DNA of 64,000 nucleotides, taken from IMG/VR virus record IMGVR_UViG_3300030107_003448, positions 36,679 to 100,678 of that record; one strand, given 5' to 3'. The notes beneath the pieces are model-generated. The model ran no database searches and had not been told where the DNA came from. It was given only the letters and a program-made list of their open reading frames with translations. Below are positions 17,701-62,193 of this stretch, piece after piece. The position numbers and the translations under genes were made by a program. The first letter of the stretch is position 1, and every line of letters begins with the position of its first letter. This stretch comes from a virus.

Positions 17701-20700
17701 AATGCGGTTTCTACTGAACCCCAAGTAGGTATATTCCATGCTCTATCAGGTAATATGTGGTCTTCTACACCACCATATAGTGATTGGACAGGCGGCGGCA
17801 CTCCTGAATCTACCTATTTACCTAATTTATTAGTTTGTGGAGGAGGAGACCATATAAGTATGGCAGGTTCTTTAGATGTATATTTACCTCCTAGTAATAA
17901 TCAACAAAGAGGAAATTTAGCAGGGTGGAATTATGAAATGAATTGGGAGCCTGCTCAAGGCATGCCTAATCTTATTACAGAAATTAATTCTGCTACTTCT
18001 TCTATCCGCTATGGGTTTGACCAAGGGGCTAACGAAGGAAGATATTATGGTAATCATTTTAAAGCACCTACTACTAATTCAACTTCTCCACCATTTTCGC
18101 ATCCATTCGATTCTCCTGCTCTTAATTCAGTTCCTGCGAGCACTTCTGTTATACGGACTAGTGGATTTAAATGGCATATGGATGGGGGTTATCATCCCGG
18201 TGGACATTGGCTTGATAATTGTGTATTGAAAAATACATATCAACCTATAGCCAATGCCCCTATTCCTAATAAATTCACTTCTGGAAGCAGTCCCGGTGAC
18301 AAAGGCACCCCTTATCCTGCTGCTTTTAGAGTAGGCTCACTTTTAACAGCAGCATATATGAATAGTGATTCTGCACAAGCGGCAAGTGGAGATACTACTG
18401 GTAACGATGTAATTTTAATTGATGCTACCCGTTGCCAAAACGCAGAAGAATTAGCCACAGTTATATCTTGCGCTATTAATGAATTTCCCGGAAAGGCAGG
18501 ATTAAAATCATTAGGAGGTACATTTTTACCTTCATTCCAAAATAGTCATAAACAAGATAAATATGGGTGGGTTCCACTTCTTGGAGAAAATGCTAGTTAC
18601 ACCGAAGGGACTTCTATACCTAATGGTCATGTAACTATAACTAACCCTAATGGAGGAGGTTCGACTGTTATGCCTCCTATACCACGTTATGGTTGGATTA
18701 GAACTGTTAGAGGAGGAAACCATGGTCCTATAGTCGGAGATTATAGTGCAGGGGCAACAGGAACTTTTGCTCCATATGTTGCTGTAGATTCTACTACTAC
18801 AGCAGGAGACCTCAAATTTATTCTTGGAGCAAATGGTGGAGGGCATATGAAATTTTGTGACCCTATTAGCACAACAGCCACTCCTCCATATGTTACTGCC
18901 GCTACATTAAACGCTGAATTAGACCATGGTGTATATGTTTGGTCTAAAACTGGTAATTGGATTTACAACAATGGTAGACCTACTGGTAGAATGTCTAAGA
19001 ATGCAGATACTAGTAGTGCTATCAACGCTAATAGCCAAGACCATATGTGTCATGTTCATTTTAATGGTCTCACTGATGCAATAGACCGCACTAGACCTAT
19101 TGGGGCAATAGGCTGGCATGGAGAAAGATATTCTTATTTAAATAGTTTAATTTTAGATAACGGAGCGCCTGTAGCAGGCACTGCTGTATATTCAGCAGGA
19201 TTAGGAGCATGGTATAGTGAGTTAGGTTTTTCTCCTTATGGTTCTATGACAACTTGTAATTCTATAGCAAGTAAAGTATCAAGAAATGATAATCAACAAC
19301 TTTTCCCTGCACAATGTCCTAGTGGTTTAAGTTCTCGACATTTAATAGCCGTAACATATGAATCAGAAATGGCTATAGTAGCCAAGGCTATGCAAGATGG
19401 TCAAGTGTGTGGTGGAGATTGGTTGTATAAAGCACAAGCAGTTGGAACAGGTACAACTTCTGCTGTTACCCCTCCTAACACAACCGCAGGCACACGTAAA
19501 TGGAGTCCTAATATTCAAAATCTTTCTCGATATACTGCTCCTGCTACAGGAGGACCTAATGTTGAGGCTCAATTCATTAAAGACCAAATCCAACCTTATC
19601 AAGCAGGAGTAATAACTGGTCTTACTATCACTAGTGGAGGAAGTGGGTATAGTGCTGGCACTGCTGATTTAACTGGTGGTTCTGGAAGTGGAGCATCTAT
19701 TACTTATACAGTAAATTCTGGTGCTGTTAACGCTATCACGGCTATCGCATCCGCAGGGACAGGTTATCAGATAGGTGATGTGTTAACAGTCGGTGGCGGT
19801 GGAGGTAATGCTACAGTTACTGTAAGCGCTGGTACAGGTTATTGGTCTTCTGAAGTTACCACTACTGCTCATTTATTGCATCCTGTAATTAGTGCAGATG
19901 GTGGAGCATCTGAAGGAGTGTTATCTACTCCTTGCGCTTCTCCTACAGGCGATTTATTTTGGGAAGAATCTACTGTTGTAGGTAATAGGTTTCATGTAGA
20001 TGACAATAATTATCGAGTAAAATGCACTGAAAATACTGATGCTAATTTTAATGCTGTCGAAGATGATACAGACCCTTGGGGATATTGGAAAGATAAATCA
20101 GCAGGGCGTAATTTCAATGTTGAACATATTGTTTGGAAAAGAATGGATGGCGGAAATCTTACTATGCCTGCTTCTAATGCTCGTGGTTTAGGAGCAGTGC
20201 CTTGGTTATGGAGAGGAACTCCCGGATATGCAGGTAGTTACAAAACAGGAGAGACCATTTATGGTAATTGTAGATTTAGTTTTGAAACTACTAATTCGGC
20301 AATGTTCCCAATTATACAAGCACAAGAGTTAAGCCATCCTCAATTGGCTGAACAACATCCTTTTGAATTAAGAAATATTTTGATGATACCTAATGAAGAT
20401 TTACAATTTGAATCTATGGAAGTAATAGATGATACAGGCCAAACCCACACAATAGAAGGTGGGTCTCCATTAGGTACAATTATTCGTGACTTTGAAAAAA
20501 TTAGCGATAGAGGCTCAGAAGGTTTGTCTCCGTCTTTAGCAAATAGTGGATTAGCACCTAATATGAAAATTCAACTACCTCATCCAGATGCTATTCCGGG
20601 CAACATAGTAGTTCGTTCTGGATTCGATAGAATACAATCATACCAAAATGAAACAATTGGTAGTGGAGGTATGATGCATCCTGCTCAACCAGAACAAGGG

Positions 20701-23700
20701 GTCAAAGACATGTTTGCAGAACCAGATAGTGCACTTGGTCCAAGGACGTGGCCTACATGGGAAAATAAAGGATGGGAACATATTTCTCAAGATGCAGATG
20801 ATGTTAGTATAGAAGCAGGTAAAACTAGATTATCTTTCCCAGACACCCATAGTCAAGGCTGGCCGAATCATACTAATGATAATCCTTTAGAAACAGCATA
20901 TGAACAACACGATAGAACTCTATATTTCCATATTACTAAAATGGGTCACACTAGTACAAGCAGAGAGCCTACTTGTATTAGCACCAGCACTGGTATGGTA
21001 GAAAGTCAAACTATTACTTATTCAAGTCATAATGCTTCTGCGGGCACATTAACTGCTAGTGCTACTATTAATGCTAATATATTCAAAGCAGAGACAGGAA
21101 CTTCTGATAGTAGATATTTTGCTCGTGTAGAAGATAGCACAGGGCAAGGTGCTGTATTTTCTTTTACTAATACGAGCAGTGCTAATTTTACAGGTGTTAA
21201 ATTTGAGCCAAACTTTGAAACATTTATAGCAGGTAAAACAGGATTAACTATCAAGCCTTCTTATTATGTACCTGCTGGTTCTACTAGATTTTTTGCTGCT
21301 AGAAGATTAAGAGACCACTGTGAAATTTCTGGTAATAGTCCAGATATGAGAAAATTACCATGGCATACAATCATTAATGACGCTGCTGATGCGTTTTCTG
21401 CTATAATTGTACCAGAAACCATGATGACTCCTATGCCTATTCCAAGAATGGGCCACCATTATGTGACACCTACTATGTCTTTTATGCCGGGGCATTTTAC
21501 TCATCCGTTTTATGAAAATGCTTTTTCATTACAATTTGGTTGTAGCAATGCTAATGTTTCTCCTGAAGAAGACAAATATACACAAAGCGCTTTAGACCCA
21601 GACACAGGAGTACATCCTGTCATTAATAATATATCTACACATAATCCTTTAGTTTGGTTTTCAACTCCTTCTAGTCCTTATCGTCCTAGTGATATACATG
21701 GAGGAGCATTTACATTACTTACGGAAACTAAAGTAGCCTACGATGGATATGGAATTGCTGCTTCTAAAGGAGATGCAGGAACAGAAAATGCTACAGGCCG
21801 ACATATATTATATTTAGAAGCGGCTTCGTCTTATAGTTTAAAATCACATTTCCCCGACCCTATGGAAGTAGGTGCATATCAAATCATAATTCAACCTAAT
21901 GTGCACAAACAACAATTACAAGGGTTTCATAATAATCATGGCACAGCCACTAAAGGTCCTGATGAAGGAGGGACTAAAGTAGTAGAGTTAACTGGTCAAC
22001 AAGTCAATTTGGTAGTAGGTATTTCCCATGACCCGGGAGGCACTGTGAACCCAGATGGTAGTATAGCCTTATTGTTAGCAGAAGCAACCATGGCTGATAC
22101 TCGTGGGTGTGAAATTTTTATCAACGAAGTCATGTTAGATTTCAGTCCAGATTCTGGAGAACAATTTACTAATATTCCTCCGTTGGGATTATACAATCCA
22201 TTAGGTGTAAATGAAAATACATCACCGCCTTTCTCAAGAAAGAGCCTTCCATATAGACCGGGAACTTTTGATAGGGCTACTCCGGGATATACTATTACCG
22301 TTCCTTGGTGGGCTATTTTACATAGAGAAAGACCACCAGCGCCCGGCGCTTCTGCTAATACAACTGCTGGATTTAGGCATTTAGAATGGCATAAGCCAGA
22401 TGATTATTATCAATTTTGTAGAGCGACATATGGGGCAATAGGAGCGCAGATTACTTTAGCGGGTTACCCTTCTTTATATGCAGATACATATGCCCCACAT
22501 CAAAATTTACGTAGTTTAAATCCTCATTGTAAAGTATTGAGTGCTACATTAGATAGTGGTAGTGGTATTGGAGGAGTAGGCACAATCGTTGTCGACAATA
22601 ATGAAACATTCCCAGTTTATCCATATTATGGAGAAATATTAGAATACATAGATTACCTTGGAGTTAGACAACGTGCTACATATGCGACTAGAGATGGTCA
22701 TTTAGGTTCTAATATAACTAATGGTCCTGCTATATTCAAAAATGTAACTGCTCTTACTTTGGATTTTTGGCCTAATATAGTATCAGTCCCTAAAATGAAA
22801 GATGGTATTATTAAATTATCAAGACCTTATGATAATTTTGTTACAGGAGATATTTTCACAAAATCTACTAGCAGTGCTATTACTCGTGTATTACCTCAAA
22901 CATTACATGGTACAAGAGATACTAATAGTCTGCATATGGGAGATGCATATCTATGTTTATGGCACCCTAATTTAGGTAGACCATATACTTTTTATAGTGA
23001 TAACACAAGTAGAAGTTTCCAAGTATATGCTGCGGTAGATGCTTCTGTAAATAAAAATCCATACAACGCTCCTCCAGAACATTTTGAAACTATACACTAT
23101 CATGATTTCTTATACAGTATTAGTAAAGGTCCTTTCGGCTTCCATATGGGAGCAACTGACCCCGAAGGAGACGGTACATATGCTGAAATGAAAGGGCTGT
23201 TAACAGGTACTATTACGGCAGGTGGTAGTGGACATGCAGCCACAGATGTACTTACTTTAACCGCAGGGACTGGATTCTTAGGCACTTCTGCGACTGTTAC
23301 AGTTTCTACCGTAAGCACAGGAGCAGTAACTGCGTTTGCTATAACTACAGCAGGGGCAGGATATTCAGTAGGTGACGTTTTATCACAAACAGCCACTACT
23401 GGTAGTGGTTCTAGTTTCCAATTAACGATAACTGCTATAGGTTCATTTGATTCAACAAAAGTCCCTCAAGGAGATGCTACTAGACATTACACAGGTTTCT
23501 GGCCCGGAGGTAGTCGTGGTGGTCCGGGAGCAAGTAGATTAGATGGTTATGGATATATCAAAGCGGGGTGGGGAGACAATGATTTCGGTATGGATTGTAA
23601 ACCTTATGCTTTAGATGGGGGTGTTGCTGGTGGTATTGCAAGAAGTACCCACGCTACTTTATTAGCAGCAGGCGATAATATACACGGTAGACAATTTTGT

Positions 23701-25887
23701 TTTGGATATAGATTTGCTGTAAGACCTCCGTTCAATAGGCCACGTTGGGCATTAAGTGTAAGAGGAATAGATGAAGCAGGCGGTAGCGCCACTAGTCCAC
23801 ATTTATTAGCAGGTTATGGGCATGGTCCTTTTGTTGCTCAAGATAATTTAACAAGCGGGTGGAAAGAAAATGCCCATGCTAATTTAGGCACAACAGATGT
23901 AAATTGGAGTGCTACTACTACAGGTATTCTGGAGAGACAGACACAAGCCAGCGCTATGTTACAGAACGACCAATTAGGTAAACAAGTAAGATATAGTGAA
24001 GGTAGGCGTATTACTCGACCATTTGGTTGTCCTGTAAGAACAATACGTAATGCTTCTACTATGAGGAAGAAATTCCCGGGCGACAATAGAGGAAAAGATA
24101 TTGATGAATTAGCCGATGCTCATCGTTTCTATATGATAGATTGGTGGGGTAATACTCGTGGTGAAGATGTGCGTAGATTCCCTGCACGTGGATTTGGTAT
24201 ACGCCCTGCTTGGGACCCACAAGATGTATACACACACGCAGGTAATACTACTAATCCTCAACTCCATGAGACTACTGTTATGTTATATCCTGCTGGTCTT
24301 AGTGATTGGTCTAGTGTGGGTGGAGTTGTTGCGGCGACCATCAGTGCAGGTGGTAGTGGATATAGTGCAGCCACAGCAGCAACAACTGGAGGAAGTGGAA
24401 CAGGCTGCACTGTTACTTATACAATAAGTGGCTCTGCTGTTAATGGTATTACTGCTTTTGCTACAAGAGGAACTGGATATGTAGTAGGCGATGTATTAAC
24501 TATTTCTGGTGGTGGTGGTAATGCAACAATTACAATAACTACTTTAGATGATTATCCAAGTGAACAACAAGGTAATGCTAATTCTGGTAACCAAGTAGGG
24601 CTGTCTCCTTCTGATATGAAAGTAGATTGGTTTAATCCTTTATCTGCACATAGAGTAGGAGATAGAGGGGATGGTAGAGGAGTTAGATGGTCTACTGCAT
24701 TTAATGAAAATTTATTACAAGAAATTGATGTGCCTGTATTAACTACTGGTCTAGTAGTTTCACATAGCACAGCAGAGCCCCCATTTGGTACAGGATATTT
24801 ACGGCCTTCAAATGATATATTAGGGGCTAAAGAGTTGCCTCGTGGTATTAGTAGTAGATTAGGTATTGCTGAACATGGTTTATTAAAACCAGAGGCTAAT
24901 GTTAGTGAAAATGTAGAAACATTAACTGGCACATTTACTAGTGGTGGTGAAACTTTAGCAGACCCATTCTCTCGTGGTGCACCTCGTATTGGTCTTGATG
25001 CTGATACAGTCTCTGAATTAAGTGGAGGTCAAGAAATAGACCACATAGGTATATCTACACAAGCCTATAGTTTACACACTGATACAGAAGTAGGACAGAG
25101 ATTATCTATTAGAGGTGCTATTGATAGTGGAGATGAAAGTGTAACTTTAGATAACTTTGATTTAACATCTTTGTCTTTTGCTACAAATCCTACTAATAGT
25201 GTTGTAAGAGTTTCTAATGCGCACGCAATATGGGCTTTAGGTGGAACATATATTTTAGAAGCCAAGAGTTATGCTGGTACATTTAATGATGCTGAATGGG
25301 GAGAAGGAAGTGCATCTAGTTCTTCTAACCCATATCAAGATTCTAACCATGACCCTACTACTGGCACAGGAGTTCAAACAAATCGTGCAGATAAAACAAT
25401 TAGATTCTTAATGAGACCATTCCGTAGATTAGATAATAGGCATATAGAACTATTTAGACCAAAAGGAATGAACACAGGTCCACAAGTAAATAATGATGGT
25501 TATCGTGCTACAGCAGGTGGTAAATATGGATTGTTTAATTATGATATGCCTAATGCTCGTAGTGGCACAATCAATCCGACTAACCCTCCTTATCAACCAT
25601 CTTATACATTCAATACTAGTGGTGTAATTACTTCAACAGGACCAAAAATACCCGGTGCTGATGTATCAACTATGGGCTTAAGCACTACAGTAGGTCGTAT
25701 TATCATAAGTGAAAATACATTAGAACACTTTAGGTCTGATGCTCCTCGTAGAACAGCCGTTAAAGACGATGGTTCAAGTGCCACTAGAACAGACTATACA
25801 GTTCAACCACGACATAGTCAAACATTACATCCGAAAGGTGAATCGGGCACAGATAGTTTTAACACAGGAGACCACAGTGCGGAGTGA
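8785..25887 (+). CDS. Giant modular tail protein with N-terminal LamG-like domain (5700 aa)
   Basis: A single uninterrupted frame of 5700 codons, more than a quarter of the window. Residues about 1-220 look like a concanavalin/LamG jelly roll (HTLTIEAWVKPD, VVLSKDGLFELKVG, VALFINGTLM, DIFIGGKGGEFRGAIESVHL), a carbohydrate- or surface-binding fold. The rest is beta-rich and full of G, T, S, N, H and P. It contains one GGGY module shared with the tail-tube gene (nt 10783-11005), a GTGIPDGAYITAIN-type module (nt about 13780-14005) and three Gly-rich modules (nt 19612-19836, 23206-23447, 24325-24545). No membrane helices, signal peptide or protease motifs were noticed. It likely forms the host-contact end of the tail. 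The start is ATG 8785 with GAGG upstream. Confidence 0.75.
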   Translation: MVVVSKAGHALVLNGISDGIIIPDSHFSHTGIQSERGDFSGPSIDNVALNTQSDTTGIGRLHTLTIEAWVKPDCGGVVLSKDGLFELKVGQVGEPGPAVLTAHMNNPHQNKTIIVASAIKNTGTPRWEGTVFPRHGVDVHGSYNSDASATIATGLNIGHRELLHVVGLISSNKVALFINGTLMAQELLPTGDFMLDFSSSDIFIGGKGGEFRGAIESVHLSRGFDAQILKPDPPIINNNTIAIWRFEEPAEVHNTVYQSGGETAAADGSTKTVSLSTADAQSLIATITGNAYDSTSPSLDLTASPYSSGNYKVMDLVSAPASPTTILVPHTPYNILFNPDGLNLSTKKPNQKPPERLRLLGINGSTGVISVESIHLDFSIAGARRGLLHSKTANVDDHFVLISGDLLIDGGTGQPYQPPHYGSQVIDRTGQMVIDEGNFQYHGLIYSSRMATTTTDSDNPYAVVWPSIDTKFQMGHTGRHTLSIQEGHHYLRQLPTPNNEIIHQSTDASADIAEIYFDASHKGLESVIPINSRLDIYRESLISPVSNIINSSWAFGLVDNGKAEGSGRELLAIGGVGAKTGIGQTIFDYTPFLLKGPIEAPSMSHDFTNYRKHHLRPITKSRIAILSVPSLNDASFVGAGNQIAPFVQIHYNAVDITGQSVGCKDSGVEIDNGGGYTAGTATSMQVSTVDIRTKFVVGDAVFTSNGDLLGVITAIPDGTHFTIGAGTNVAVADNDNLFSINPFLLIEKTVPSADTVLNSTGPVTVYDAILNDLADAAKDTQLYAPGGLITLDTSNSDGQLPDVELESLFQSDPEEGIHNEDELNESLTPQNYSLVHPSDVAKANPQLINAEHTTIAHDAVFHRLVINQQNIDLINQLTESANYFRRNSSITGSGAGGYDIGNTSAASHLNESFDIISARKIDGMESQSKQFLIHPSDRARFSQLTKLNTTNSRPEEPNIVSIQYLMTKTRATSISSQEGSSDRQVEMICTGLIGDAGAIGIDVLGSGAPDSHAIKEVMPGAPVVTVTLGGPGQGAVNTKPTYDPSPFTRLGWNTRKDCGAIITNIAATGGTVAWTVAPLNNASTDLASWGTYCFPRVGRIYLENGAHAAYNAKSGASFTMDGTASGLASSGKYIKPDGTPADGYAEWLVACGLTANSKCNFKVFVDGSFGEDTVCNDGSTINDRMFQTMDSVTHDYQLGTQYASTRSLVEIPIFPDLLFTNTERCINPGPDNSLKLHIDATYTAHNWAPSPVGRRCPSYSPRDRTAFGVSGHKISLQSSLKGAHITGDPYLNGGDLRLPVSNYSLFQNSTTTPTTLGGKNLSTRYFKAFLANGEWATYTTSHSGGYLILTNGPSTDVGKDMSDNFLETVEPGMSIFPGPSLINDNLMPIRDHPTVASAAYEGRSSYYYNRSNVQTQGGNIDYGLRQYVSAIELKAGPRENPHLPKTKNKRARSTVVSWTAGSHLLILDDASDFPLGGTTLLYLNGATHQFQYRVAYIDTSGNEQTAHYKAEAVTGNNIILSSGLYSGSWNPPVGTEIYVKDFHNITANKYPEVIEEIPLSNAWLNPYAAGGLREGDTVWMNMHYTNPHAVEGLFCKSHGVFDESKVHTMFNGGEGLFTTTPRSSIPMENFLIGNTCLETAKNLVQHINQTVTKNFETLGRKKTFTDNTCDTNHTSGLSDGTTTSVRHITHTANSNIVAGLLVSGTGIPDGAYITAINTATCFTISADTSATNTNTTLTFTTPTHAPVAFLDPYQATETFARVLLYDVSQDREFIAMQDLHMQVQTSPQTPKLGSPASYLVSGPAAFDGTPVSANYSTEIDVANGFPSQVKSHSPTAASEYIESAYTHSAHWNQYAPVGLSAGFEHTINSFSCLGDFGHARVKESACCPDTAYLTHAYRQSGAAETSETIYSTTFDTPMGTRVIPSFLCLKGIRNEALDLSQYADTKLQYLPQWTQMDFVRRLTVDLGEIGLREGVTDIEAAINEVVRLINQAGALKGRTHARRPASQYPGETDRLDIDNVGPNPDVSHSDSDASAPHLSADFSATGSTHDPAPFWENSISFASHDRGSHMGYVRAHVGRVVEDSDGNEGYTIVIHSTIPGASGRNFCIWLDNSKGQSAYKPQFLIGHGGRFRNFWCRPDEMTLENMHPAPMPINKDGRPFAPITTLKEILPPEESTDEYVNNLYLGKGVLSTAGASSDGTENANTVGVTGNHQNTVYDESYETQGTESVLVEGLRAGTPALARINFGGMVMAGIPGWSPKAGQWGCGRTGNTRYLAAYGQTTVGGFNYVKYNSSTNGHVPSDDYKDENIGNGNLYGIKLTDHLGRTHIIRFIYSQFEESFTNDLTELPPTIDQEICIWFDDRDVGQGGFTIGRHMLGEGDVCAKSALSVNDEFVGNKWGPYPSPFVGLGVTASTAWDAANTKLTVVLAAPYDTSSALGAHPDILGYMGFPDSGVLQYNGNSKSGVTLSYTSRTHNNENGPHVFYGVTGNGALAHNQAGNITSRINWNTLLTDEIIAAAVEFAINMDDPNSISVTKTRFDCTEMYAADGKKLKDWGLTKNSIRIRAHSKTSRVTPLNCLFEATTAKDWGIHASTILAEHGTAETSETRIPTGYLPATVLNLKTRYYGTNANTATPVVVDSANNVIDTTVWKDNLRGTRFIDTPGDLIIPRIDSPSVEIDGSTHSAGEVQTTNGDSFWHVLRPTSTGGFGERKRIWWNEKEWALVTGSVQSGPRHQFDWPTTAEQAISANWETELTDLGTNAALVYTHTNIEHANEFDGLRLTGNTGGEPLVYFRGARDSVDHEVPLYFGGGFSGVTLDINDGTQNDYSDFYTHPYANGPTGSTGLQNIGEKSTSYCLLDAHAMLAMFPGTPYLDDHKGQNNPPYFNQNSILSHDMAGGAMTHPDGNTRYGAVARGSRSVSKYVPVTVPSPIVLRFSHPHARYHPALFSEGGYQDSDTYSMYVVFGPGQSFPMNNAVSTEPQVGIFHALSGNMWSSTPPYSDWTGGGTPESTYLPNLLVCGGGDHISMAGSLDVYLPPSNNQQRGNLAGWNYEMNWEPAQGMPNLITEINSATSSIRYGFDQGANEGRYYGNHFKAPTTNSTSPPFSHPFDSPALNSVPASTSVIRTSGFKWHMDGGYHPGGHWLDNCVLKNTYQPIANAPIPNKFTSGSSPGDKGTPYPAAFRVGSLLTAAYMNSDSAQAASGDTTGNDVILIDATRCQNAEELATVISCAINEFPGKAGLKSLGGTFLPSFQNSHKQDKYGWVPLLGENASYTEGTSIPNGHVTITNPNGGGSTVMPPIPRYGWIRTVRGGNHGPIVGDYSAGATGTFAPYVAVDSTTTAGDLKFILGANGGGHMKFCDPISTTATPPYVTAATLNAELDHGVYVWSKTGNWIYNNGRPTGRMSKNADTSSAINANSQDHMCHVHFNGLTDAIDRTRPIGAIGWHGERYSYLNSLILDNGAPVAGTAVYSAGLGAWYSELGFSPYGSMTTCNSIASKVSRNDNQQLFPAQCPSGLSSRHLIAVTYESEMAIVAKAMQDGQVCGGDWLYKAQAVGTGTTSAVTPPNTTAGTRKWSPNIQNLSRYTAPATGGPNVEAQFIKDQIQPYQAGVITGLTITSGGSGYSAGTADLTGGSGSGASITYTVNSGAVNAITAIASAGTGYQIGDVLTVGGGGGNATVTVSAGTGYWSSEVTTTAHLLHPVISADGGASEGVLSTPCASPTGDLFWEESTVVGNRFHVDDNNYRVKCTENTDANFNAVEDDTDPWGYWKDKSAGRNFNVEHIVWKRMDGGNLTMPASNARGLGAVPWLWRGTPGYAGSYKTGETIYGNCRFSFETTNSAMFPIIQAQELSHPQLAEQHPFELRNILMIPNEDLQFESMEVIDDTGQTHTIEGGSPLGTIIRDFEKISDRGSEGLSPSLANSGLAPNMKIQLPHPDAIPGNIVVRSGFDRIQSYQNETIGSGGMMHPAQPEQGVKDMFAEPDSALGPRTWPTWENKGWEHISQDADDVSIEAGKTRLSFPDTHSQGWPNHTNDNPLETAYEQHDRTLYFHITKMGHTSTSREPTCISTSTGMVESQTITYSSHNASAGTLTASATINANIFKAETGTSDSRYFARVEDSTGQGAVFSFTNTSSANFTGVKFEPNFETFIAGKTGLTIKPSYYVPAGSTRFFAARRLRDHCEISGNSPDMRKLPWHTIINDAADAFSAIIVPETMMTPMPIPRMGHHYVTPTMSFMPGHFTHPFYENAFSLQFGCSNANVSPEEDKYTQSALDPDTGVHPVINNISTHNPLVWFSTPSSPYRPSDIHGGAFTLLTETKVAYDGYGIAASKGDAGTENATGRHILYLEAASSYSLKSHFPDPMEVGAYQIIIQPNVHKQQLQGFHNNHGTATKGPDEGGTKVVELTGQQVNLVVGISHDPGGTVNPDGSIALLLAEATMADTRGCEIFINEVMLDFSPDSGEQFTNIPPLGLYNPLGVNENTSPPFSRKSLPYRPGTFDRATPGYTITVPWWAILHRERPPAPGASANTTAGFRHLEWHKPDDYYQFCRATYGAIGAQITLAGYPSLYADTYAPHQNLRSLNPHCKVLSATLDSGSGIGGVGTIVVDNNETFPVYPYYGEILEYIDYLGVRQRATYATRDGHLGSNITNGPAIFKNVTALTLDFWPNIVSVPKMKDGIIKLSRPYDNFVTGDIFTKSTSSAITRVLPQTLHGTRDTNSLHMGDAYLCLWHPNLGRPYTFYSDNTSRSFQVYAAVDASVNKNPYNAPPEHFETIHYHDFLYSISKGPFGFHMGATDPEGDGTYAEMKGLLTGTITAGGSGHAATDVLTLTAGTGFLGTSATVTVSTVSTGAVTAFAITTAGAGYSVGDVLSQTATTGSGSSFQLTITAIGSFDSTKVPQGDATRHYTGFWPGGSRGGPGASRLDGYGYIKAGWGDNDFGMDCKPYALDGGVAGGIARSTHATLLAAGDNIHGRQFCFGYRFAVRPPFNRPRWALSVRGIDEAGGSATSPHLLAGYGHGPFVAQDNLTSGWKENAHANLGTTDVNWSATTTGILERQTQASAMLQNDQLGKQVRYSEGRRITRPFGCPVRTIRNASTMRKKFPGDNRGKDIDELADAHRFYMIDWWGNTRGEDVRRFPARGFGIRPAWDPQDVYTHAGNTTNPQLHETTVMLYPAGLSDWSSVGGVVAATISAGGSGYSAATAATTGGSGTGCTVTYTISGSAVNGITAFATRGTGYVVGDVLTISGGGGNATITITTLDDYPSEQQGNANSGNQVGLSPSDMKVDWFNPLSAHRVGDRGDGRGVRWSTAFNENLLQEIDVPVLTTGLVVSHSTAEPPFGTGYLRPSNDILGAKELPRGISSRLGIAEHGLLKPEANVSENVETLTGTFTSGGETLADPFSRGAPRIGLDADTVSELSGGQEIDHIGISTQAYSLHTDTEVGQRLSIRGAIDSGDESVTLDNFDLTSLSFATNPTNSVVRVSNAHAIWALGGTYILEAKSYAGTFNDAEWGEGSASSSSNPYQDSNHDPTTGTGVQTNRADKTIRFLMRPFRRLDNRHIELFRPKGMNTGPQVNNDGYRATAGGKYGLFNYDMPNARSGTINPTNPPYQPSYTFNTSGVITSTGPKIPGADVSTMGLSTTVGRIIISENTLEHFRSDAPRRTAVKDDGSSATRTDYTVQPRHSQTLHPKGESGTDSFNTGDHSAE
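10783..11005 (+). repeat. Diverged third copy of the GGGY module, in the giant gene
   Basis: It encodes IDNGGGYTAGTATSMQVS, then FVVGDAVFTSNGDLLGVITA and a GAGTNVAVADND end. Motif by motif this matches the two tandem modules at 3830-4326 in the tail-tube gene, so the two structural proteins share a building block. Confidence 0.65.
19612..19836 (+). repeat. Gly-rich GSGYSAGT module, copy 1
   Basis: It encodes ITSGGSGYSAGTADLTGGSG, then a strand, then a second half with GTGYQIGDVLTVGGGGGNAT. This is an internal twofold pattern (GxGY..GD/T) common in marine phage virion proteins. Two further copies follow in the same gene. Confidence 0.7.
23206..23447 (+). repeat. Gly-rich GSGYSAGT module, copy 2
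   Basis: It encodes ITAGGSGHAATDVLTLTAGT, then AGAGYSVGDVLSQTATTGSG. It has the same two-half layout as the copies at 19612 and 24325, and is the most diverged of the three. Confidence 0.6.
24325..24545 (+). repeat. Gly-rich GSGYSAGT module, copy 3
   Basis: It encodes ISAGGSGYSAATAATTGGSG, then GTGYVVGDVLTISGGGGNAT. It is close to copy 1 at protein level. Confidence 0.7.
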
Positions 25888-28904: not shown

Positions 28905-29153
28905 ATGGGTAGATTATTAGACAAGTTAAAACATACATGCCCTAAATGTAGGGTTATTGGATTTCCTACTCGTATTATGGGAACTTATGCTAACCATAGT
29001 AGAAGTAAAGTATACTTATGGGAATGCGATTCTTGTGACCATATCTGGAAGGACACACAAAAACACCCTAAACCTGTAGAAAACAAAAAGGAACATGCTG
29101 TGCTTAGATTAGAGCACTGGAAAACAGTAGCAGAAAAAGAACTAGACTTGTAA
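28905..29153 (+). CDS. Small zinc-ribbon protein at the end of the structural block
   Basis: An 82-residue protein from ATG 28905, with GAGTGAT just upstream. A GTG three codons earlier is less likely. CPKC near the start and CDSC about 30 residues later make a four-cysteine zinc ribbon, followed by a basic/acidic helix. It ends 12 bp inside the convergent TFB gene. It could be a late regulator or a structural accessory protein. Confidence 0.6.
   Translation: MGRLLDKLKHTCPKCRVIGFPTRIMGTYANHSRSKVYLWECDSCDHIWKDTQKHPKPVENKKEHAVLRLEHWKTVAEKELDL
29142..29153. other. Convergent overlap of the two transcription blocks
   Basis: The + strand structural block ends at 29153 and the - strand block ends at 29142, so the last genes overlap tail to tail by 12 bp. 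There is no intergenic space and no hairpin or long T-run terminator was seen. Confidence 0.8.
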
Positions 29154-30062
29154 ATCTAATTTTAGTGATTTATTGATTTGTTTATACCTATTTCTAATTG
29201 TAACTTCTGTTACCCCAGAAACTTCTGATATTTCTTTTTGGGTCCTACGTTGATTATTGAGCACGCCTGCGATATACAGCGTTGCTGCACCTACGCTTGG
29301 TGGGCTAACTCCAATATCCATTTCTTTCTCCTCTAGTTCTTCACATAACCTAAGAGCAATTAATTCTGTAGATGCACTAACACCTAAATCACTAGCAAAT
29401 CTACCTAAGTAATCTACCCCACGTAAATGGGGCAATCTGATGCCTAATTTACGTTTGATAACACGCTCTACTCTACCTATTTCTTTTCTGCCACATCTAC
29501 TAACAGAAGTAATTTCATCTAATGTCCTAGGAACACCACATTGACGACAGGCGATATACAGAGCACTCGCTATTACTAAATCAATAGACCTTCCCCTAGT
29601 GATTCTTTCCTCTACTGATTTTTTATAAATGACAGCGCCTGCTTCTCTTACTATTTTAGGTAAAGACATCCTACTTGCCATTCGGTCTAGTTCTGCTAAG
29701 GCTACTGCTAGGTTACGTTCTAATGAATTACTCACACGTGCTCGTTTTTGCCATTTACGCATACGATACATTTGTGAACGAGAATGACTAGGTAGGTTTT
29801 TGCCACTATAGTCTTTATTCTGCCAACCAATATCTGTAGACAGCCCTTTGTCATGTAATAAAACCGACATAGGTGCACCTGTGCGCTTCTTCTTTTCTGC
29901 ATCTTCCATGCTGTAAATGCTCCATTCCCCTCTAGGGTCTATCATAGCATCTTGTAATACTAAACCGCAGTCTTGGCATACTATTTCTCCTCTGTCTATA
30001 TCCTTATCCAGATTGCGACTATCACATTCTGGACACTTTACAGTGTCGGAGGTTTCTACCAT
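29142..30062 (-). CDS. tfb: Transcription initiation factor B (TFB)
   Basis: A 306-residue protein, full length for archaeal TFB. The N-terminal zinc ribbon has C10, C13, C29 and C32. A B-reader-like segment follows (DPRGEWSIYS, about 42-55; cellular TFBs usually have DxGPEWR). Two cyclin repeats lie at about 115-200 and 210-300 (GRSIDLVIASALYIACRQ; ...SPPSVGAATLYIAGV), and the C-terminal helix-turn-helix EISEVSGVTEVTIRNRYKQI is the BRE-contacting type. TFB joins TBP at promoters to recruit RNA polymerase. As the last gene of the operon containing the thermosome, a viral copy may redirect host polymerase, for example to the repeated element described here. Confidence 0.95.
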   Translation of the reverse strand: MVETSDTVKCPECDSRNLDKDIDRGEIVCQDCGLVLQDAMIDPRGEWSIYSMEDAEKKKRTGAPMSVLLHDKGLSTDIGWQNKDYSGKNLPSHSRSQMYRMRKWQKRARVSNSLERNLAVALAELDRMASRMSLPKIVREAGAVIYKKSVEERITRGRSIDLVIASALYIACRQCGVPRTLDEITSVSRCGRKEIGRVERVIKRKLGIRLPHLRGVDYLGRFASDLGVSASTELIALRLCEELEEKEMDIGVSPPSVGAATLYIAGVLNNQRRTQKEISEVSGVTEVTIRNRYKQINKSLKLDLQV

Positions 30063-30067
30063 TTTAC

Positions 30068-31609
30068 CTACTCCATTCTTTTACTGATGATGTCATCAAT
30101 ACGTAAGATGGAGATGGCTACTTCAGATGAACTACGAATTGCTTGTGTAATAACAGATAGTGGTTCAATGACACCTATTTCGGTCATACTCACAGTGCCA
30201 CCATTTGTTACATCTACTCCTCTATCTGACATGCCTTGTGCATGGTCATTTCTTAGAGCCAGAATGGTGTCTAATGGGTCATGTCCTGCGTTTTCTGCAA
30301 TAGTAGCAGGAATAATTTCTAAGGCTTCTGCAAATGCTTCTACAGCCATTTGTTCTCTCCCACCCATGTCTGCTGCTCTTTGTCTCAAATGGTTAGCCAT
30401 ACTGATATACACTGAACCTCCACCAGTTACGACTTTACCGTTCTTATATGCTAAACTGACTACACCTACAGAATCTGCGAATGCTCTTTCAAATTCATCT
30501 AGGGTTTGCATAGTCGCTCCCCTTAGAATTAATGTAGACACAGGGCATTGTTCACCTTCGTGCTCTATTATGACATATTTCATGTCTCCAATTTTGTCTT
30601 CTCTGATAGATAAGCACTCGCCTACATGCTGTTCACCTAGAGATTCAATGTCATGTGCTACTCCTATGGTAAGAAGGCGAGACAGAGAACCAAGGCTGCT
30701 TTCTGCTACTCTCCTAACCACTGCAATATTGGCTTCTGCTAGGAATTTAACTACACGTTCATCTACTCCATCACGAGAAAAGACTACACCACCTTTTGGT
30801 AGTATGTTTATCACTTTTTCAGCATTAGCGAATAAAGTCATTTTGCCTGCATCATTATATTCTTTGGCTTCTCTTGCCGATGAAAAATGCACGTTAGTTT
30901 TTTCTTCTTTTTTGGGTGTGTTTAAACCTGTGTTAATCAAAATAGCACTAGGTGTAGCGCCATCTTTCAAAGCCACTTGAAACTCTTTGTTTAATACAAT
31001 ACCCGGGAATAATTTAGATTCATCCATGCTTCCTCCAGATTGACAAATTACTCTCACTTTAGAAGCGTCTCCTTCTGCATCTAATACTGCATTGACACAT
31101 AGTTCAGATGCTTTATCTAAACAGTGTTCTACACTTTTACCTGTCATTGCTGTTTTTGCTACTAAGTTTAAATCTGCACTACCCGAATCTAAATCATTAC
31201 AATACTCAATTGCCCATTTAGACGCTTGATGATACCCACGACAGATAACATTAGGGTGCAATCCTTTTTGGAATAGTTGTTCACTATTCGCTAATAGTTG
31301 TCCACCTAAAACCACTGTGCTAGTTGTGCCATCATAGCATACATTTTCTTGTGTCTTAGCCATTTCAATAATCATTTTTGCTCCGGGATGGGCTACATCT
31401 AATTCACGTAGGATGGTCGCACCGTCATTTGTTACAATGACATTACCGTGACCATCTACCATCATCTTGTCCATACCCGCAGGCCCAAGTGTGCTACGCA
31501 CTGTATCTGCTACAGCCTTAGCCGCACGTATATTGTGCATTTGGGCTTGATTTCTGCCTGTTTGTTGTTGTTCGTCTCTTACTACTACTACTCTTTGTTC
31601 TTCACTCAT
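30068..31609 (-). CDS. thsA: Group II chaperonin (thermosome) subunit
   Basis: A 513-residue subunit of the ATP-driven double-ring protein-folding chamber. I take ATG 31609, which overlaps the upstream stop (ATGA), over TTG 31615. Visible landmarks are LGPAGMDKMMVD, VTNDGATILREL, DGTTSTVVLGGQLL (nucleotide-binding Asp) and VVTGGGSVYISMANHL near the C-terminal equatorial domain. The length is slightly short because the flexible Gly/Met-rich tail found in cellular thermosomes is absent. Viral thermosomes are known from magroviruses. Likely clients are virion proteins such as the 5700-residue protein, though that is inference. It lies between exonuclease and TFB in one operon. Confidence 0.93.
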   Translation of the reverse strand: MSEEQRVVVVRDEQQQTGRNQAQMHNIRAAKAVADTVRSTLGPAGMDKMMVDGHGNVIVTNDGATILRELDVAHPGAKMIIEMAKTQENVCYDGTTSTVVLGGQLLANSEQLFQKGLHPNVICRGYHQASKWAIEYCNDLDSGSADLNLVAKTAMTGKSVEHCLDKASELCVNAVLDAEGDASKVRVICQSGGSMDESKLFPGIVLNKEFQVALKDGATPSAILINTGLNTPKKEEKTNVHFSSAREAKEYNDAGKMTLFANAEKVINILPKGGVVFSRDGVDERVVKFLAEANIAVVRRVAESSLGSLSRLLTIGVAHDIESLGEQHVGECLSIREDKIGDMKYVIIEHEGEQCPVSTLILRGATMQTLDEFERAFADSVGVVSLAYKNGKVVTGGGSVYISMANHLRQRAADMGGREQMAVEAFAEALEIIPATIAENAGHDPLDTILALRNDHAQGMSDRGVDVTNGGTVSMTEIGVIEPLSVITQAIRSSSEVAISILRIDDIISKRME

Positions 31610-32217
31610 ATCCAATCTACCTCTATTTCTACTATTTCCCCTGTTTCTCTGGAGCGTGATTTAATGATGCCTTCTGTATGGCCATGTGTCCATAAGCGAT
31701 GGACCAATTGGCTGTCTTTTAAACAATATGCCGCCACTTCATTGTAACGGCCTTGTTTCCACATGATGGGCGCATCTACCCCTGCGGCTGTTTTTGTATC
31801 TTCTAATGTATGACGAGATAATGTATTCAAGTCATGATAATCTGCACCTGCTTTTCGGCATAGTAATGATGTGTCTACAAGAGACTCCATTTTACCTAGT
31901 AAATCCCCTGCTGTCCAACAATCTAATGCATCCCTTAAAACAGGTAAATCAAAGTTGACAATATTATGTCCTATAACTCGGCCACCTTCTTCTATATGCT
32001 TTATTAAGTCATCCCCTAATGTTTTGGGGTGTAACTCTTTCAATATTGTGCCTTTAGGCAAAGCCGCAGGGTCAAGTGATTTGTTACAATATATTGTGCC
32101 TACTTCTCCATCCCACGTTGTTACCACAGTCGGTTCAAACATGGCTGTTTTATCCCAACCCCCAATTTCATGGGAGTAGTTTGCTGTTTCTATGTCTAAT
32201 GCTAGTAATTTATTCAT
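31606..32217 (-). CDS. DEDD-type 3'-5' exonuclease
   Basis: A 203-residue RNase H-fold exonuclease. Motif I is LALDIET (D8, E10), motif II is GHNIVNFDLPVL and motif III is YCLKDSQLVHRL (tyrosine variant, DEDDy). The arrangement resembles the proofreading domain of family B polymerases or RNase D/ExoX-like enzymes standing alone. It is translationally coupled to the ATPase gene upstream (4-bp overlap) and the thermosome downstream. It could process DNA ends or primers, or degrade host DNA. Confidence 0.8.
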   Translation of the reverse strand: MNKLLALDIETANYSHEIGGWDKTAMFEPTVVTTWDGEVGTIYCNKSLDPAALPKGTILKELHPKTLGDDLIKHIEEGGRVIGHNIVNFDLPVLRDALDCWTAGDLLGKMESLVDTSLLCRKAGADYHDLNTLSRHTLEDTKTAAGVDAPIMWKQGRYNEVAAYCLKDSQLVHRLWTHGHTEGIIKSRSRETGEIVEIEVDWI

Positions 32218-33641: not shown

Positions 33642-33667
33642 TTTTTATTGTTGTCGGTTCTTAAAGG
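33642..33667 (-). promoter_or_regulatory. Promoter-like element, copy 1
   Basis: Transcribed strand CCTTTAAGAACCGACAACAA then TAAAAA. The TTTAA centre is 37 bp before the ATPase ATG (33626), leaving room for a short leader with GGTGA. It lies in the only sizeable gap in this stretch (33627-33701). Confidence 0.65.
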
Positions 33668-38473: not shown

Positions 38474-38500
38474 TGTTTTTTTGTTGTCGGTTCTTAAAGG
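38474..38500 (-). promoter_or_regulatory. Promoter-like element, copy 2
   Basis: Transcribed strand CCTTTAAGAACCGACAACAA then an A-run. It begins immediately after the polymerase stop (TAA 38502-38504). The TTTAA centre is 35 bp from the ATG at 38461. Confidence 0.65.
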
Positions 38501-44267: not shown

Positions 44268-44308
44268 TTTTATTTTCACCTCATTTGGTTTTTGTTTCCT
44301 CAATTACT

Positions 44309-44331
44309 TTATTTTTGTTGGTTCTTAAAGG
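44309..44331 (-). promoter_or_regulatory. Promoter-like element, copy 3
   Basis: Transcribed strand CCTTTAAGAACCAACAAAAA then TAAAG. The centre is 60 bp before the SSB-like ATG (44267), the longest leader of the set. It doubles as the end of the clamp-loader gene (codons FKNQQK then stop). Confidence 0.6.
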
Positions 44332-45893: not shown

Positions 45894-45918
45894 TTTTATT
45901 GTTGTCGGTTCTTAAAGG
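45894..45918 (-). promoter_or_regulatory. Promoter-like element, copy 4
   Basis: Transcribed strand CCTTTAAGAACCGACAACAA then TAAAA. The TTTAA of the element contains the stop codon of the upstream gene (45912-45914). The centre is 27 bp before ATG 45887. Confidence 0.65.
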
Positions 45919-46304
45919 ATTGAATCAACATAGGTGACATATTCACGGAATGCGGGTATATCATCGTGAGGTGGAGGGTTCATCAAAATATACTCGGCTG
46001 CCTTTATTGGTTGTGTAGATGGGAAATAATCAGACCAAGGTTTGAGCATGTCCAGTAATTTAAGCAGGCTCTCCTCATCAGTCACTTGGTTACCCTCGGT
46101 TGTCTGTATATCTCGCCTTAGCAGGAAATCTCGTAGGAGGGATTTTGTGGCTGTAGATTTACGTAAACCTATATCAGCACTCACAAATAACCTATGCCCA
46201 CAAACGTTCCTTACACTGTTTTTCATACTTACTTTCAAATTAAAACATTGAATGAGCATACCTAAAGCAACACGGTCAGATTTGCTTAATTCATTCAAGA
46301 GCAT
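45912..46304 (-). CDS. Hypothetical protein
   Basis: A 130-residue mostly helical protein (LSKSDRVALGMLIQCFNLKV, KSTATKSLLRDFLLRRDIQT, DEESLLKLLDML). The start overlaps the ligase-like gene stop by 10 bp. There is one Cys and no zinc motif. No family is recognised. Confidence 0.55.
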   Translation of the reverse strand: MLLNELSKSDRVALGMLIQCFNLKVSMKNSVRNVCGHRLFVSADIGLRKSTATKSLLRDFLLRRDIQTTEGNQVTDEESLLKLLDMLKPWSDYFPSTQPIKAAEYILMNPPPHDDIPAFREYVTYVDSIL

Positions 46305-47716
46305 GCCTCCACTATATCTGTAAATTGACTAGTATCTCCTCTACCTAATTCTCCATTAATACCTGTAAATTCAAAGTTCAAAAACTTGTATGTTTCGGCC
46401 TCTATATTTGTGCAAGTGCCCTCTACTATAATGCCTAATTTCTCTATATCTTCCCAATCTTCTTCTGGGCTCACTCCTCTACGATTGAGTATCAAAATAA
46501 CATTTGTGCTCGCCTCTGCGTCAAGGGTAAGAGTGTGAATCGGGAAAGAGTCAAACCCGTCTAAAACAGCCAATCTTAAACAAATGAATCCTTCTTTGTC
46601 TTTTTTCATTTCTGTAATTAATAGGCGGAATTGGAATGCGTGGTGCACAAGAATCCACCCGTTATTATCTCCGGGTTTGTATGGGCCTCCATCGACAATA
46701 CGGGCTAGTTCATTATCGTCTAACAAAGACATAATTTGTGTAGCAGATTCATTACCTGTTAATTCCATTGGCTCTATCACTTTCATTCTTTTACCACTAC
46801 TAGCCCAAAAACGTAGTATGTGAATCCTGTCTTTGTAAGGGAGGTGTATTTTAGATTCATTGTAATATAAGCAATCAGTCACACACCATAATTTATTATT
46901 CATAGATTCTACTTCTACAATCCAATCTCCTCTAGGTTTGTAACCATCCCACATTGTTTTGAGACCAATTACCTTAGACCCGTCTCTATTTCTTAAGGTG
47001 GCTTTTCTGTTATGGATATATAAAAATCTACGTGGTCCTCTCACTATATCTACAAATGAGTCTTCGGGCATCGTAGTTTTTCCCCACTGTTGATAATGCC
47101 CCCCTTTCATAGCACAATCTGGTCTAGGTGTTAGCATGGGTAATGTTTCTGGTGATTTTAATAGTCTGATAACTACCTCAAGAAAAGGGATAGTAGAATA
47201 AGCGGCATGTATATCATTTGGTTTAAATTTCATATGAGGCACATGTGACCATGCTAGAGCATATAAAAACGAACCTTGGCTCATAGAAATGGGCCTACTT
47301 GTTAGAATAGTAGACCAAAATAATAGTGCTTCTAGTTCATCCATTTGATTGCATAATGTAAGAATATCATGATTGTATAAATCCTTAGCGATAGCCAAGC
47401 ATTGAGTAATGGTTATGCCAGTAGATGTTATTCCTTCAGATTCGGATGCTAATATTTCTGGTAAAGTTTCATGTCCTAAAGATTGTGAAATAGTATGAGG
47501 GTAAACATTTAGTTCCTCAGATAATTTAAGCCGTAAATTTTTGCTACTAATATAAGGGCCACAGAAAAGGAAATCACATAATTCTATAATTTCTTCGTGG
47601 TTTTTAGATTCCTCTATCACACCTTTGACAAAATCTTTACGATTCTCAAAATGGGGTTTTTTTATCCATAATTCAGCCGCTAGTTCAGCCACTTTTCTTA
47701 ATCGCATTTCAACCAT
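46295..47716 (-). CDS. Large protein with weak ATP-dependent DNA ligase resemblance
   Basis: A 473-residue protein. A helical N-terminal half (1-200) is followed by a region that recalls nucleotidyltransferase ligases in order. FVDIVRGPRRFLYIH takes the place of the KxDGxR lysine motif, then RNRDGSKVIG, then WCVTDCLYYNESKIHLPYKD and RIHILRF, much like the ligase pattern FDxLYxxG...LPxxxRxxxL. If the alignment is right, the catalytic Lys is Arg and the Asp-Gly is lost, so it would be inactive as a ligase. It could equally be an unrelated DNA-binding protein. It overlaps the mini-TFB gene by 19 bp. Confidence 0.35.
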   Translation of the reverse strand: MVEMRLRKVAELAAELWIKKPHFENRKDFVKGVIEESKNHEEIIELCDFLFCGPYISSKNLRLKLSEELNVYPHTISQSLGHETLPEILASESEGITSTGITITQCLAIAKDLYNHDILTLCNQMDELEALLFWSTILTSRPISMSQGSFLYALAWSHVPHMKFKPNDIHAAYSTIPFLEVVIRLLKSPETLPMLTPRPDCAMKGGHYQQWGKTTMPEDSFVDIVRGPRRFLYIHNRKATLRNRDGSKVIGLKTMWDGYKPRGDWIVEVESMNNKLWCVTDCLYYNESKIHLPYKDRIHILRFWASSGKRMKVIEPMELTGNESATQIMSLLDDNELARIVDGGPYKPGDNNGWILVHHAFQFRLLITEMKKDKEGFICLRLAVLDGFDSFPIHTLTLDAEASTNVILILNRRGVSPEEDWEDIEKLGIIVEGTCTNIEAETYKFLNFEFTGINGELGRGDTSQFTDIVEACS

Positions 47717-48018
47717 CTCGGCTTAGGTTGTGTGCTTACTCCATAATTGTCTTTCAATTTTTTAGCGAATTGTCTAATTGTGACTTTCGCCCCATACTTA
47801 TTTGCTGTAAAATAAAGACAATCTACCATTGTCCCTTGTAAAGTGCGTGGAGCCTTGCCTGCATATTTATCATACAGAGACAAGGCGTGCTCTATAATAT
47901 CGGGAGACAAACCTAACGCTTGTCCCATTTTTATTCCTATATGATGTGCATTATCTTTAAAGCCACGGTAAGCATTGGCTTTAACTCTCATTCTTTCGGA
48001 ATGTCCTTTAACTCTCAT
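47698..48018 (-). CDS. Mini-TFB: single cyclin-repeat protein
   Basis: A 106-residue basic protein. Residues about 18-95 follow one TFB cyclin repeat: MGQALGLSPDIIEHALSLYD, then TMVDCLYFTANKYGAKVTIR and QFAKKL. These match LxLPxxVxxxAxxIYxK...AxxYIAxRxxGxPxTxxEI. There is no zinc ribbon, B-reader or second repeat, so it cannot be a complete TFB. It may bind TBP or BRE DNA as a regulator or decoy beside the full viral TFB (29142-30062). The start is ATG 48018. A second ATG at 47991 follows a repeated GAATGAGAGTTAAAG sequence. Confidence 0.5.
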   Translation of the reverse strand: MRVKGHSERMRVKANAYRGFKDNAHHIGIKMGQALGLSPDIIEHALSLYDKYAGKAPRTLQGTMVDCLYFTANKYGAKVTIRQFAKKLKDNYGVSTQPKPRWLKCD

Positions 48019-48746
48019 TCTTCCTCATCGCCTTCATTTGTAGGTGAATAAAGACAGTATGTTCCTCTCATGTGAGGAGGCACTGGTTCATCGTTTAATG
48101 TTGAACCCAACGGAACACAAACAGTAGGGGCTAGATTGCTATCTACCATGTCTACAACTTGTTCACGAGTTAACACTGTATAGATTCCTTCCTCAGTAAC
48201 CCAACGGAAAAACAAATTATCTCCACCTAGTAAACCGTAGTCTTTCGGGTCAATTCTAATTACAGTATCACATTCACCACAGGGGAACTCCACAAACCAT
48301 CTTTCCATTTCTATACCTTGTGCATTTTCATCAAGGGCCGCCTGCATTCCTACAGTAACCCACCTAGAATCTTCTAATGGCATGTCGACTAATTTACAAT
48401 CACAACCTTCTGCGAGACATTCCCATTGTGCTGCTATTGCTTGTTGTCGTAAAAGTTGTTGATATTGTTCTTCTTGTGGATTAAGAGAAGGTAAAACCAT
48501 CTCTGCGTCTTCTTCTGTAATAACCCAATCTGTCCCATCTAAAGTTAGTAAAACCCTTCTATGCATTTCTCCAGAATCTGGATGCTGTGTAATTTTACGA
48601 AGGGCTAAGGAAGTCTCTCCTGTCCTTTCATATTCTAACCCAGAACCACCCGGGGCCCAGATACCCCCTACATTAATACTAGTCAAATGACTAATAGTCC
48701 ATTCTATATCCTGTTCTGTAGGAACCCATATTTCTTCTTCGCTCAT
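48015..48746 (-). CDS. Hypothetical acidic protein with cysteine clusters
   Basis: A 243-residue acidic protein. The central cysteines CLAEGCDCKL and FPCGECDTVI could bind one zinc. The rest is mixed alpha/beta with a C-terminal YTVLTREQVVDMVDSN helix. It overlaps both neighbours by 4 bp. No family is recognised. Confidence 0.55.
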   Translation of the reverse strand: MSEEEIWVPTEQDIEWTISHLTSINVGGIWAPGGSGLEYERTGETSLALRKITQHPDSGEMHRRVLLTLDGTDWVITEEDAEMVLPSLNPQEEQYQQLLRQQAIAAQWECLAEGCDCKLVDMPLEDSRWVTVGMQAALDENAQGIEMERWFVEFPCGECDTVIRIDPKDYGLLGGDNLFFRWVTEEGIYTVLTREQVVDMVDSNLAPTVCVPLGSTLNDEPVPPHMRGTYCLYSPTNEGDEEE

Positions 48747-53220: not shown

Positions 53221-53245
53221 CTTTATTGTTGTTGGTTCTTAAAGG
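53221..53245 (-). promoter_or_regulatory. Promoter-like element, copy 5
   Basis: Transcribed strand CCTTTAAGAACCAACAACAA then TAAAG. The centre is 33 bp before ATG 53208. It also encodes the end of the upstream gene (FKNQQQ, stop). Confidence 0.65.
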
Positions 53246-57315: not shown

Positions 57316-57341
57316 TTTTTATTGTTGTTGGTTCTTAAAGG
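57316..57341 (-). promoter_or_regulatory. Promoter-like element, copy 6
   Basis: Transcribed strand CCTTTAAGAACCAACAACAA then TAAAAA. It lies in the 91-bp gap before the SAP gene, with its centre 46 bp from ATG 57291. An in-frame-stopped 10-codon frame (MKKRWNYYEG) starts 24 bp from the centre. Confidence 0.65.
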
Positions 57342-60843: not shown

Positions 60844-60868
60844 TTTTATTGTTGTTGGTTCTTAAAGA
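60844..60868 (-). promoter_or_regulatory. Promoter-like element, copy 7
   Basis: Transcribed strand TCTTTAAGAACCAACAACAA then TAAAA. It is directly after the upstream gene's stop (TGA 60871-60873). The TTTAA centre is 24 bp from ATG 60840 and 39 bp from ATG 60825. Confidence 0.65.
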
Positions 60869-61456: not shown

Positions 61457-61681
61457 TTAGTCCTCCTTGAATATGATAACACAGGGTATAGGTAAACCTT
61501 TCTTTTTAGATGCATTAGATTGTAGTAATATACCCCTGTGTTTGTTTGTGCCATCTAATCCCTCATCTAATACGTGTAACATATCTTGCACTGTTTTACC
61601 ATCTTCGGGAAAGAACTGAACACATTGTCTACCTTTCACTTCATGTATCTTAATAGTGCCAACATCTGTGAAGTCAATCAT
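61457..61681 (-). CDS. Hypothetical protein
   Basis: A 74-residue protein from ATG 61681, behind GGAGGTGACAGC. The GTG at 61708 lies upstream of that site and is rejected. It is alpha/beta (TIKIHEVKGRQCVQFFPE, then helix VQDMLHVLDEGLDG and strand IPCVIIF). No family is recognised. Confidence 0.55.
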   Translation of the reverse strand: MIDFTDVGTIKIHEVKGRQCVQFFPEDGKTVQDMLHVLDEGLDGTNKHRGILLQSNASKKKGLPIPCVIIFKED

Positions 61682-62193
61682 GCTGTCACCTCCACACCTT
61701 TCCACCAACTAGGAGCAGGTGTTCCCTTCTCCCACTTGGCGAACTGCTTGGAATGGTAGTAGGCTCGGTATGCCTTGACCACATCATCGTCACGATACTC
61801 CTCGGGCATAGCCAGTGCGAATGGTGTGAGATATCTTGAATCTGTAAATGGAATTAACCCACATATACAGTGCATATCTATGATAGGGTCGTGACAAGCA
61901 TGACGCTTACCAAACCTCTTTGTATATTCTTCACACAAAGCAACTGCGTGTCGAACAAGCCATAGAAAATTGGAACGACTGTTACCTGCCCATACTGTGC
62001 AAGGGTGATGTTTATGACCACCCTTGTATGGTGTTCCCGCTTTAGTCAACGGCATCTGTTCATCAGTCGCACCGTGGTAACGCAAAGCACTAGCCATCAT
62101 CTGTGCTGCTTCTACACACATCTTGGGGATGTGTTTGTCACAGTGCATACGTGCTGCTGCTACTGGGTCTAAGTCTAATACGAATATGTTCAT
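61678..62193 (-). CDS. Conserved marine-phage-type hypothetical protein (MNIFVLDxDP family)
   Basis: A 171-residue protein. The start MNIFVLDLDPVAAARMHCDK, then HIPKMCVEAAQMMASAL, HHPCTVWAGNSRSNFLWLVR and EEYTKRFGKRHACHD are the landmarks of a widespread but uncharacterised family in cyanophages and other marine phages. Conserved His, Cys and Asp residues suggest a metal or nucleotide site. It is coupled to the zinc gene upstream. GC is higher here than in its neighbours. Confidence 0.6.
   Translation of the reverse strand: MNIFVLDLDPVAAARMHCDKHIPKMCVEAAQMMASALRYHGATDEQMPLTKAGTPYKGGHKHHPCTVWAGNSRSNFLWLVRHAVALCEEYTKRFGKRHACHDPIIDMHCICGLIPFTDSRYLTPFALAMPEEYRDDDVVKAYRAYYHSKQFAKWEKGTPAPSWWKGVEVTA

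Follow-up and report, generated by a model that had tools for sequence, protein, structure and literature searches.

What use would a virus with a complete TFB have for a second, much smaller protein that looks like a single TFB cyclin repeat? This question is raised by an open reading frame of 106 residues (P0001, hereafter mini-TFB) at positions 47698-48018, minus strand, of the window, i.e. the whole 64,000-nucleotide stretch of DNA analysed here. The window is part of the 100,678-base record of an archaeal tailed virus that encodes PolB, an RFC-like clamp loader, a thermosome-type chaperonin, a SNF2-type helicase and a full TFB. Archaeal cells are known to have truncated TFB paralogs, which act as regulators.

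The mini-TFB gene and its ortholog

Mini-TFB lies between two genes of unknown function on the same strand, one upstream (243 aa, 48015-48746, minus strand) and one downstream (473 aa, 46295-47716, minus strand), both conserved in relatives by alignment and both without a Pfam match. Its start overlaps the stop of the upstream gene by 4 nt (ATGA) and its 3' end overlaps the downstream gene, which makes operon membership very likely. A ribosome-binding-like GAGG (48023-48026, minus strand) precedes the start. Searches with the downstream neighbour and PolB retrieved two related virus records. In one of them, IMGVR_UViG_3300030117_006323 (G002; locus L004), an ortholog of 107 aa, 62% identical, is found between the same two neighbour genes, with the GAGG element in common. 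At codon positions 1, 2 and 3, respectively 31, 20 and 65 of 103 sites differ between the orthologs, and this third-position-heavy divergence is the pattern expected of a protein under constraint. A chance or artefactual reading frame is ruled out by the ortholog together with the codon-position pattern; judged by this comparison and by the profile and fold matches described below, the interval is a real, constrained gene. A further possibility, that the gene arose recently by truncation of a copy of the viral TFB, was rejected as well (BLASTP E 0.49). At the start of the gene, ATGAGAGTTAAAG occurs twice, 27 bases apart (47979-48018, minus strand), so that the protein reads MRVK...MRVK.

Similarity to a TFB cyclin repeat

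The preliminary description had matched the protein to one TFB cyclin repeat, and had proposed profile-profile comparison and fold prediction as checks. Taken alone, P0001 gave no TFIIB match and nothing meaningful in Pfam, and single-sequence searches of Pfam, PDB, PHROGs and phage records by tblastn returned chance matches only, with no meaningful match among 50,697 phage records for the latter. No third family member was found in IMG/VR with the single sequence, a two-row profile or two degenerate patterns, and a scan of a genome collection, within its sensitivity, yielded no relative. As a pointer to the host, matches to Bathyarchaeota TFBs may only reflect the seed patterns used. The sole Pfam match of the ortholog was TFIIB, at an E-value of 0.061 that is under the curated cut-off. 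When PF00382 was searched across six virus records, it matched the full TFBs and the mini-TFB ortholog (E 0.006), and nothing else.

The two-ortholog profile was aligned by hhalign with an alignment in which repeats 1 and 2 of 27 TFBs were pooled, giving Prob 82, P 1.1e-5 and a score of 33.8, as against a best score of 18.5 among 150 column shuffles. Against repeat 1 alone P was 5.5e-5, and against repeat 2 it was 0.013. In the reverse search, performed with a two-sequence HMM on 3075 unique ORFs enriched in TFB loci (50 TFBs among them), the 20 best non-self matches were all TFBs. Restricting the search to ORFs of at least 250 aa, where 50 out of 168 are TFBs, left TFBs in all ten top positions (P 2.7e-6, with related TFBs counted as independent). 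In one stretch, the hmmsearch alignments lead from the B-linker end (RLRKW) through to helix 2 of repeat 1, and in another they cover the corresponding part of repeat 2, so that the assignment to repeat 1 rather than repeat 2 is probable, not certain. By sequence homology mini-TFB thus belongs to the TFB cyclin-repeat domain family, its Pfam TFIIB match lying below the curated cut-off, and the similarity seems to extend over the B-linker end and one cyclin repeat, probably repeat 1.

Predicted fold and missing elements

AlphaFold2 models were obtained for P0001 (pLDDT 79.6, pTM 0.69) and for the ortholog (pLDDT 85.8, pTM 0.77); the input consisted of the two sequences only, each model using the other ortholog as alignment, and the models are consequently not fully independent. 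Both are predicted to adopt a cyclin fold, with TFIIB, TFB, Brf1, cyclin C and other cyclin-fold proteins as best Foldseek matches (probability of about 1.00, with modest E-values from 0.016 upward). The initial match to a single TFB repeat is therefore borne out by profile-profile comparison, reverse search and both fold predictions, which agree.

Three segments can be distinguished. Residues 2-28 (47935-48015, minus strand) are basic and align with the end of the B-linker and the start of helix 1 of repeat 1, as seen in weakly scoring hmmsearch alignments of RVKGHSERMRVKANAYRGF to RLRKWQ..RV. Residues 29-86 (47761-47934, minus strand) form the cyclin-repeat core, with the end of H1, H2, H3 and the start of H4, as delimited by the hhalign alignment of 29-86 to repeat 1 and the helices of the model. 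Residues 93-106 (47701-47742, minus strand) correspond to a degenerate, proline-broken helix 5 carrying neither KEIGR nor TIRNRYKEL, according to the alignments and the secondary structure of the model. After helix 4, P0001 reads NYGVSTQPKPRWLKCD and the ortholog KYGVGTEPRPSWLQCVLEN, and the prolines in both segments leave room for a short helix 5 at most. In the aligned TFBs this position is occupied by KEIGR or KREVGR (repeat 1) and by TEVTIRNRYKEL (repeat 2); mini-TFB has no H4-H5 helix-turn-helix with either KEIGR, as in repeat 1, or TIRNRYKEL, as in repeat 2. As first described, the protein has no zinc ribbon, neither P0001 nor P0003 containing CxxC pairs, and no second cyclin repeat, the 106 residues being modelled as one cyclin domain. 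It thus lacks both hallmarks of the general transcription factors TFB and TFIIB. Its likeness to the first repeat of the archaeal TFB and TFIIB core lies in the fold, the H1-H4 sequence pattern and the preceding B-linker end, and it differs by its single repeat, its degenerate helix 5 and the loss of KEIGR and ribbon. Altogether, alignments and models indicate that mini-TFB is very probably a divergent, reduced relative of archaeal TFB, in which the B-linker end and a single cyclin repeat, probably repeat 1, have been retained.

In TFIIB, the lysines of KKEIGR make contact with TBP. The N-terminal repeat of Brf2 touches DNA via its helix-turn-helix (PMC4671959). Since KEIGR and a proper helix 5 are missing, canonical binding of mini-TFB to TBP or BRE DNA is, from its sequence, unlikely. 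This bears on the earlier proposal of a decoy for host TBP, in which the lone repeat would occupy TBP-DNA and keep the full TFB out, so that transcription of the host (or early transcription of the virus) would be shut down. Such a role would fit a relative of the first repeat with a net charge of +11.8 in P0001, and we found no TBP gene in these viruses, which do carry a full TFB. But the ortholog is weakly basic (+2.6), a decoy would also strike the virus's own TFB-dependent promoters, and where TFB repeats touch TBP and DNA, the KEIGR segment that the aligned TFBs retain is missing and helix 5 is shortened. The proposal is weakened accordingly and we consider it quite improbable.

The full TFB, the promoter-like motif and the gene slot in related viruses

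The complete viral TFB (306 aa, 29142-30062, minus strand) has a zinc ribbon and two cyclin repeats (Pfam TFIIB E 9.8e-36, Zn_Ribbon_TF 3.2e-12). The preliminary description had placed the small protein beside it; the two do share genome and strand, but they lie 17.6 kb apart and are adjacent only in a loose sense. The TFB gene adjoins an archaeal-type chaperonin gene (Cpn60_TCP1 E 4e-132; 30068-31615, minus strand), and the same pair occurs in L004.

The distinctive promoter family that had been noted was recovered as a promoter-like motif, TTTAAGAACCRACAACAATAAAA, with 7 copies in the window at up to 3 mismatches where 0 are expected. All are on the minus strand, close upstream of genes or operons (33643-33665, 38476-38498, 44307-44329, 45894-45916, 53221-53243, 57317-57339 and 60844-60866), the copy at 53221-53243 being the nearest upstream of the gene run that includes mini-TFB. 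From its position, we infer that TTTAAGAACCRACAACAATAAAA is a promoter. Its conserved block runs well downstream of the TATA-like TTTAAG, which is unusual for archaeal core promoters. Near copies are present in both related records, with 5 in G001 (3300030419_003599; locus L003). Mini-TFB is absent from the whole of that record, where 3 bases separate the two flanking genes, and the full TFB is kept. Mini-TFB is thus dispensable in this close relative, and the comparison of three records suggests, without establishing it, that the motif does not require mini-TFB. The idea of a dedicated transcription switch, or of a dedicated factor of this promoter family, is weakened by the same relative, which has motif and full TFB and a closed slot.

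The content of the slot flanked by the 243-aa and the 473-aa gene varies: empty in G001, the slot holds in G002, ahead of mini-TFB, two further small ORFs (L004:2571-3233), one of 147 aa and one encoding a cysteine-bearing protein of about 70 aa, and in the distant L010 a DUF3860 protein (10690-11172). It looks like a variable accessory-gene slot. A gene from such a slot could encode a cyclin-fold protein-protein adaptor directed against a host target outside basal transcription, for example in anti-defence. We regard this as unlikely, for the TFB-like stretch seems to take in the B-linker end, a feature that a general adaptor role would not readily explain.

Comparison with known systems and proposed role

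Sulfolobus and Thermoproteus TFB3 is, like mini-TFB, a TFB paralog with a single cyclin fold encoded alongside full TFBs in the same genome. TFB3, which is without one cyclin fold, activates in trans through the DNA-TFB1-TBP complex but cannot replace TFB1 (PMC3189178; PMC2246294; PMC7289017). It is a cellular protein with an N-terminal zinc ribbon, whereas mini-TFB is viral and ribbon-less with an abbreviated helix 5; the two are compared here by description. The Arabidopsis AtBRF5 has been described as a linker plus one cyclin fold without a zinc domain (PMC7865254); by description it shares this organization with mini-TFB and differs in being a plant protein. The viral TFBs of Aoguangviridae, Acidianus rod-shaped virus 3 and Halorubrum tailed virus belong to the same virus-encoded TFB family but are full length. 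In the open-access papers searched, we found no archaeal virus described as having a TFB derivative with a single repeat and no ribbon. Mini-TFB is a real viral variant of the truncated TFB paralogs, not a TFB proper, and as far as we found an undescribed one.

Orc6 offers another precedent, since it uses a TFIIB-like cyclin fold in replication. Mini-TFB could likewise be a replication-linked DNA-binding or adaptor protein that reuses a TFB-like cyclin domain: its gene shares a module with PolB and the RFC-like clamp loader, Orc6 is among the fold matches of the model, and the TFIIB-like cyclin-box domains of Orc6 bind DNA in metazoa (PMC3791464). Yet no function is assigned to the immediate neighbours, membership of an operon is in itself weak evidence given that early viral operons mix functions, and at the sequence level the similarity detected is to TFB, the comparison with Orc6 being one of folds. 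Orc6 is moreover eukaryotic, with two TFIIB-like domains and a C-terminal ORC-binding region, whereas mini-TFB has one domain and no C-terminal extension. A replication role seems rather unlikely.

By analogy with TFB3, the best explanation of the whole, which we favour tentatively and at slightly less than an even chance, would be that of a reduced TFB relative acting in trans as an initiation cofactor. Mini-TFB, which without the RNAP-recruiting ribbon and the BRE-reading second repeat cannot replace TFB, would be expressed from an operon of several genes in the replication module, as the gene overlaps suggest. It would act in trans on an initiation complex of host RNA polymerase, host TBP and viral or host TFB, possibly docking at the site that the B-linker and first cyclin repeat normally occupy, and might from there raise or lower initiation, as TFB3 does with TFB1 in Sulfolobus. 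The presence of a full TFB without a TBP gene in these viruses argues for a cofactor; the replication or unknown character of the surrounding genes, the zinc ribbon kept by TFB3 and lost here, and the absence of mini-TFB from a close relative with TFB and promoter motif argue against it. In a more elaborate and very unlikely version, the full viral TFB and a ribbon-less B-linker/first-repeat partner would form a two-part system through which host RNA polymerase is retuned towards promoters of the AAGAACCRACAACAA family; mini-TFB would then be an optional modulator that close relatives have gained or lost. Should mini-TFB indeed act on the initiation complex, it would rank as a very small regulator of initiation and would offer a natural minimal means of probing what the B-linker and first cyclin repeat do by themselves.

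Other features of the window

The plus-strand half of the window contains an ORF of 5700 aa (8785-25887, plus strand), very large for a tailed virus. A pyrimidine dimer DNA glycosylase-like protein is encoded at 61678-62193 (minus strand), with two related ORFs in L012.
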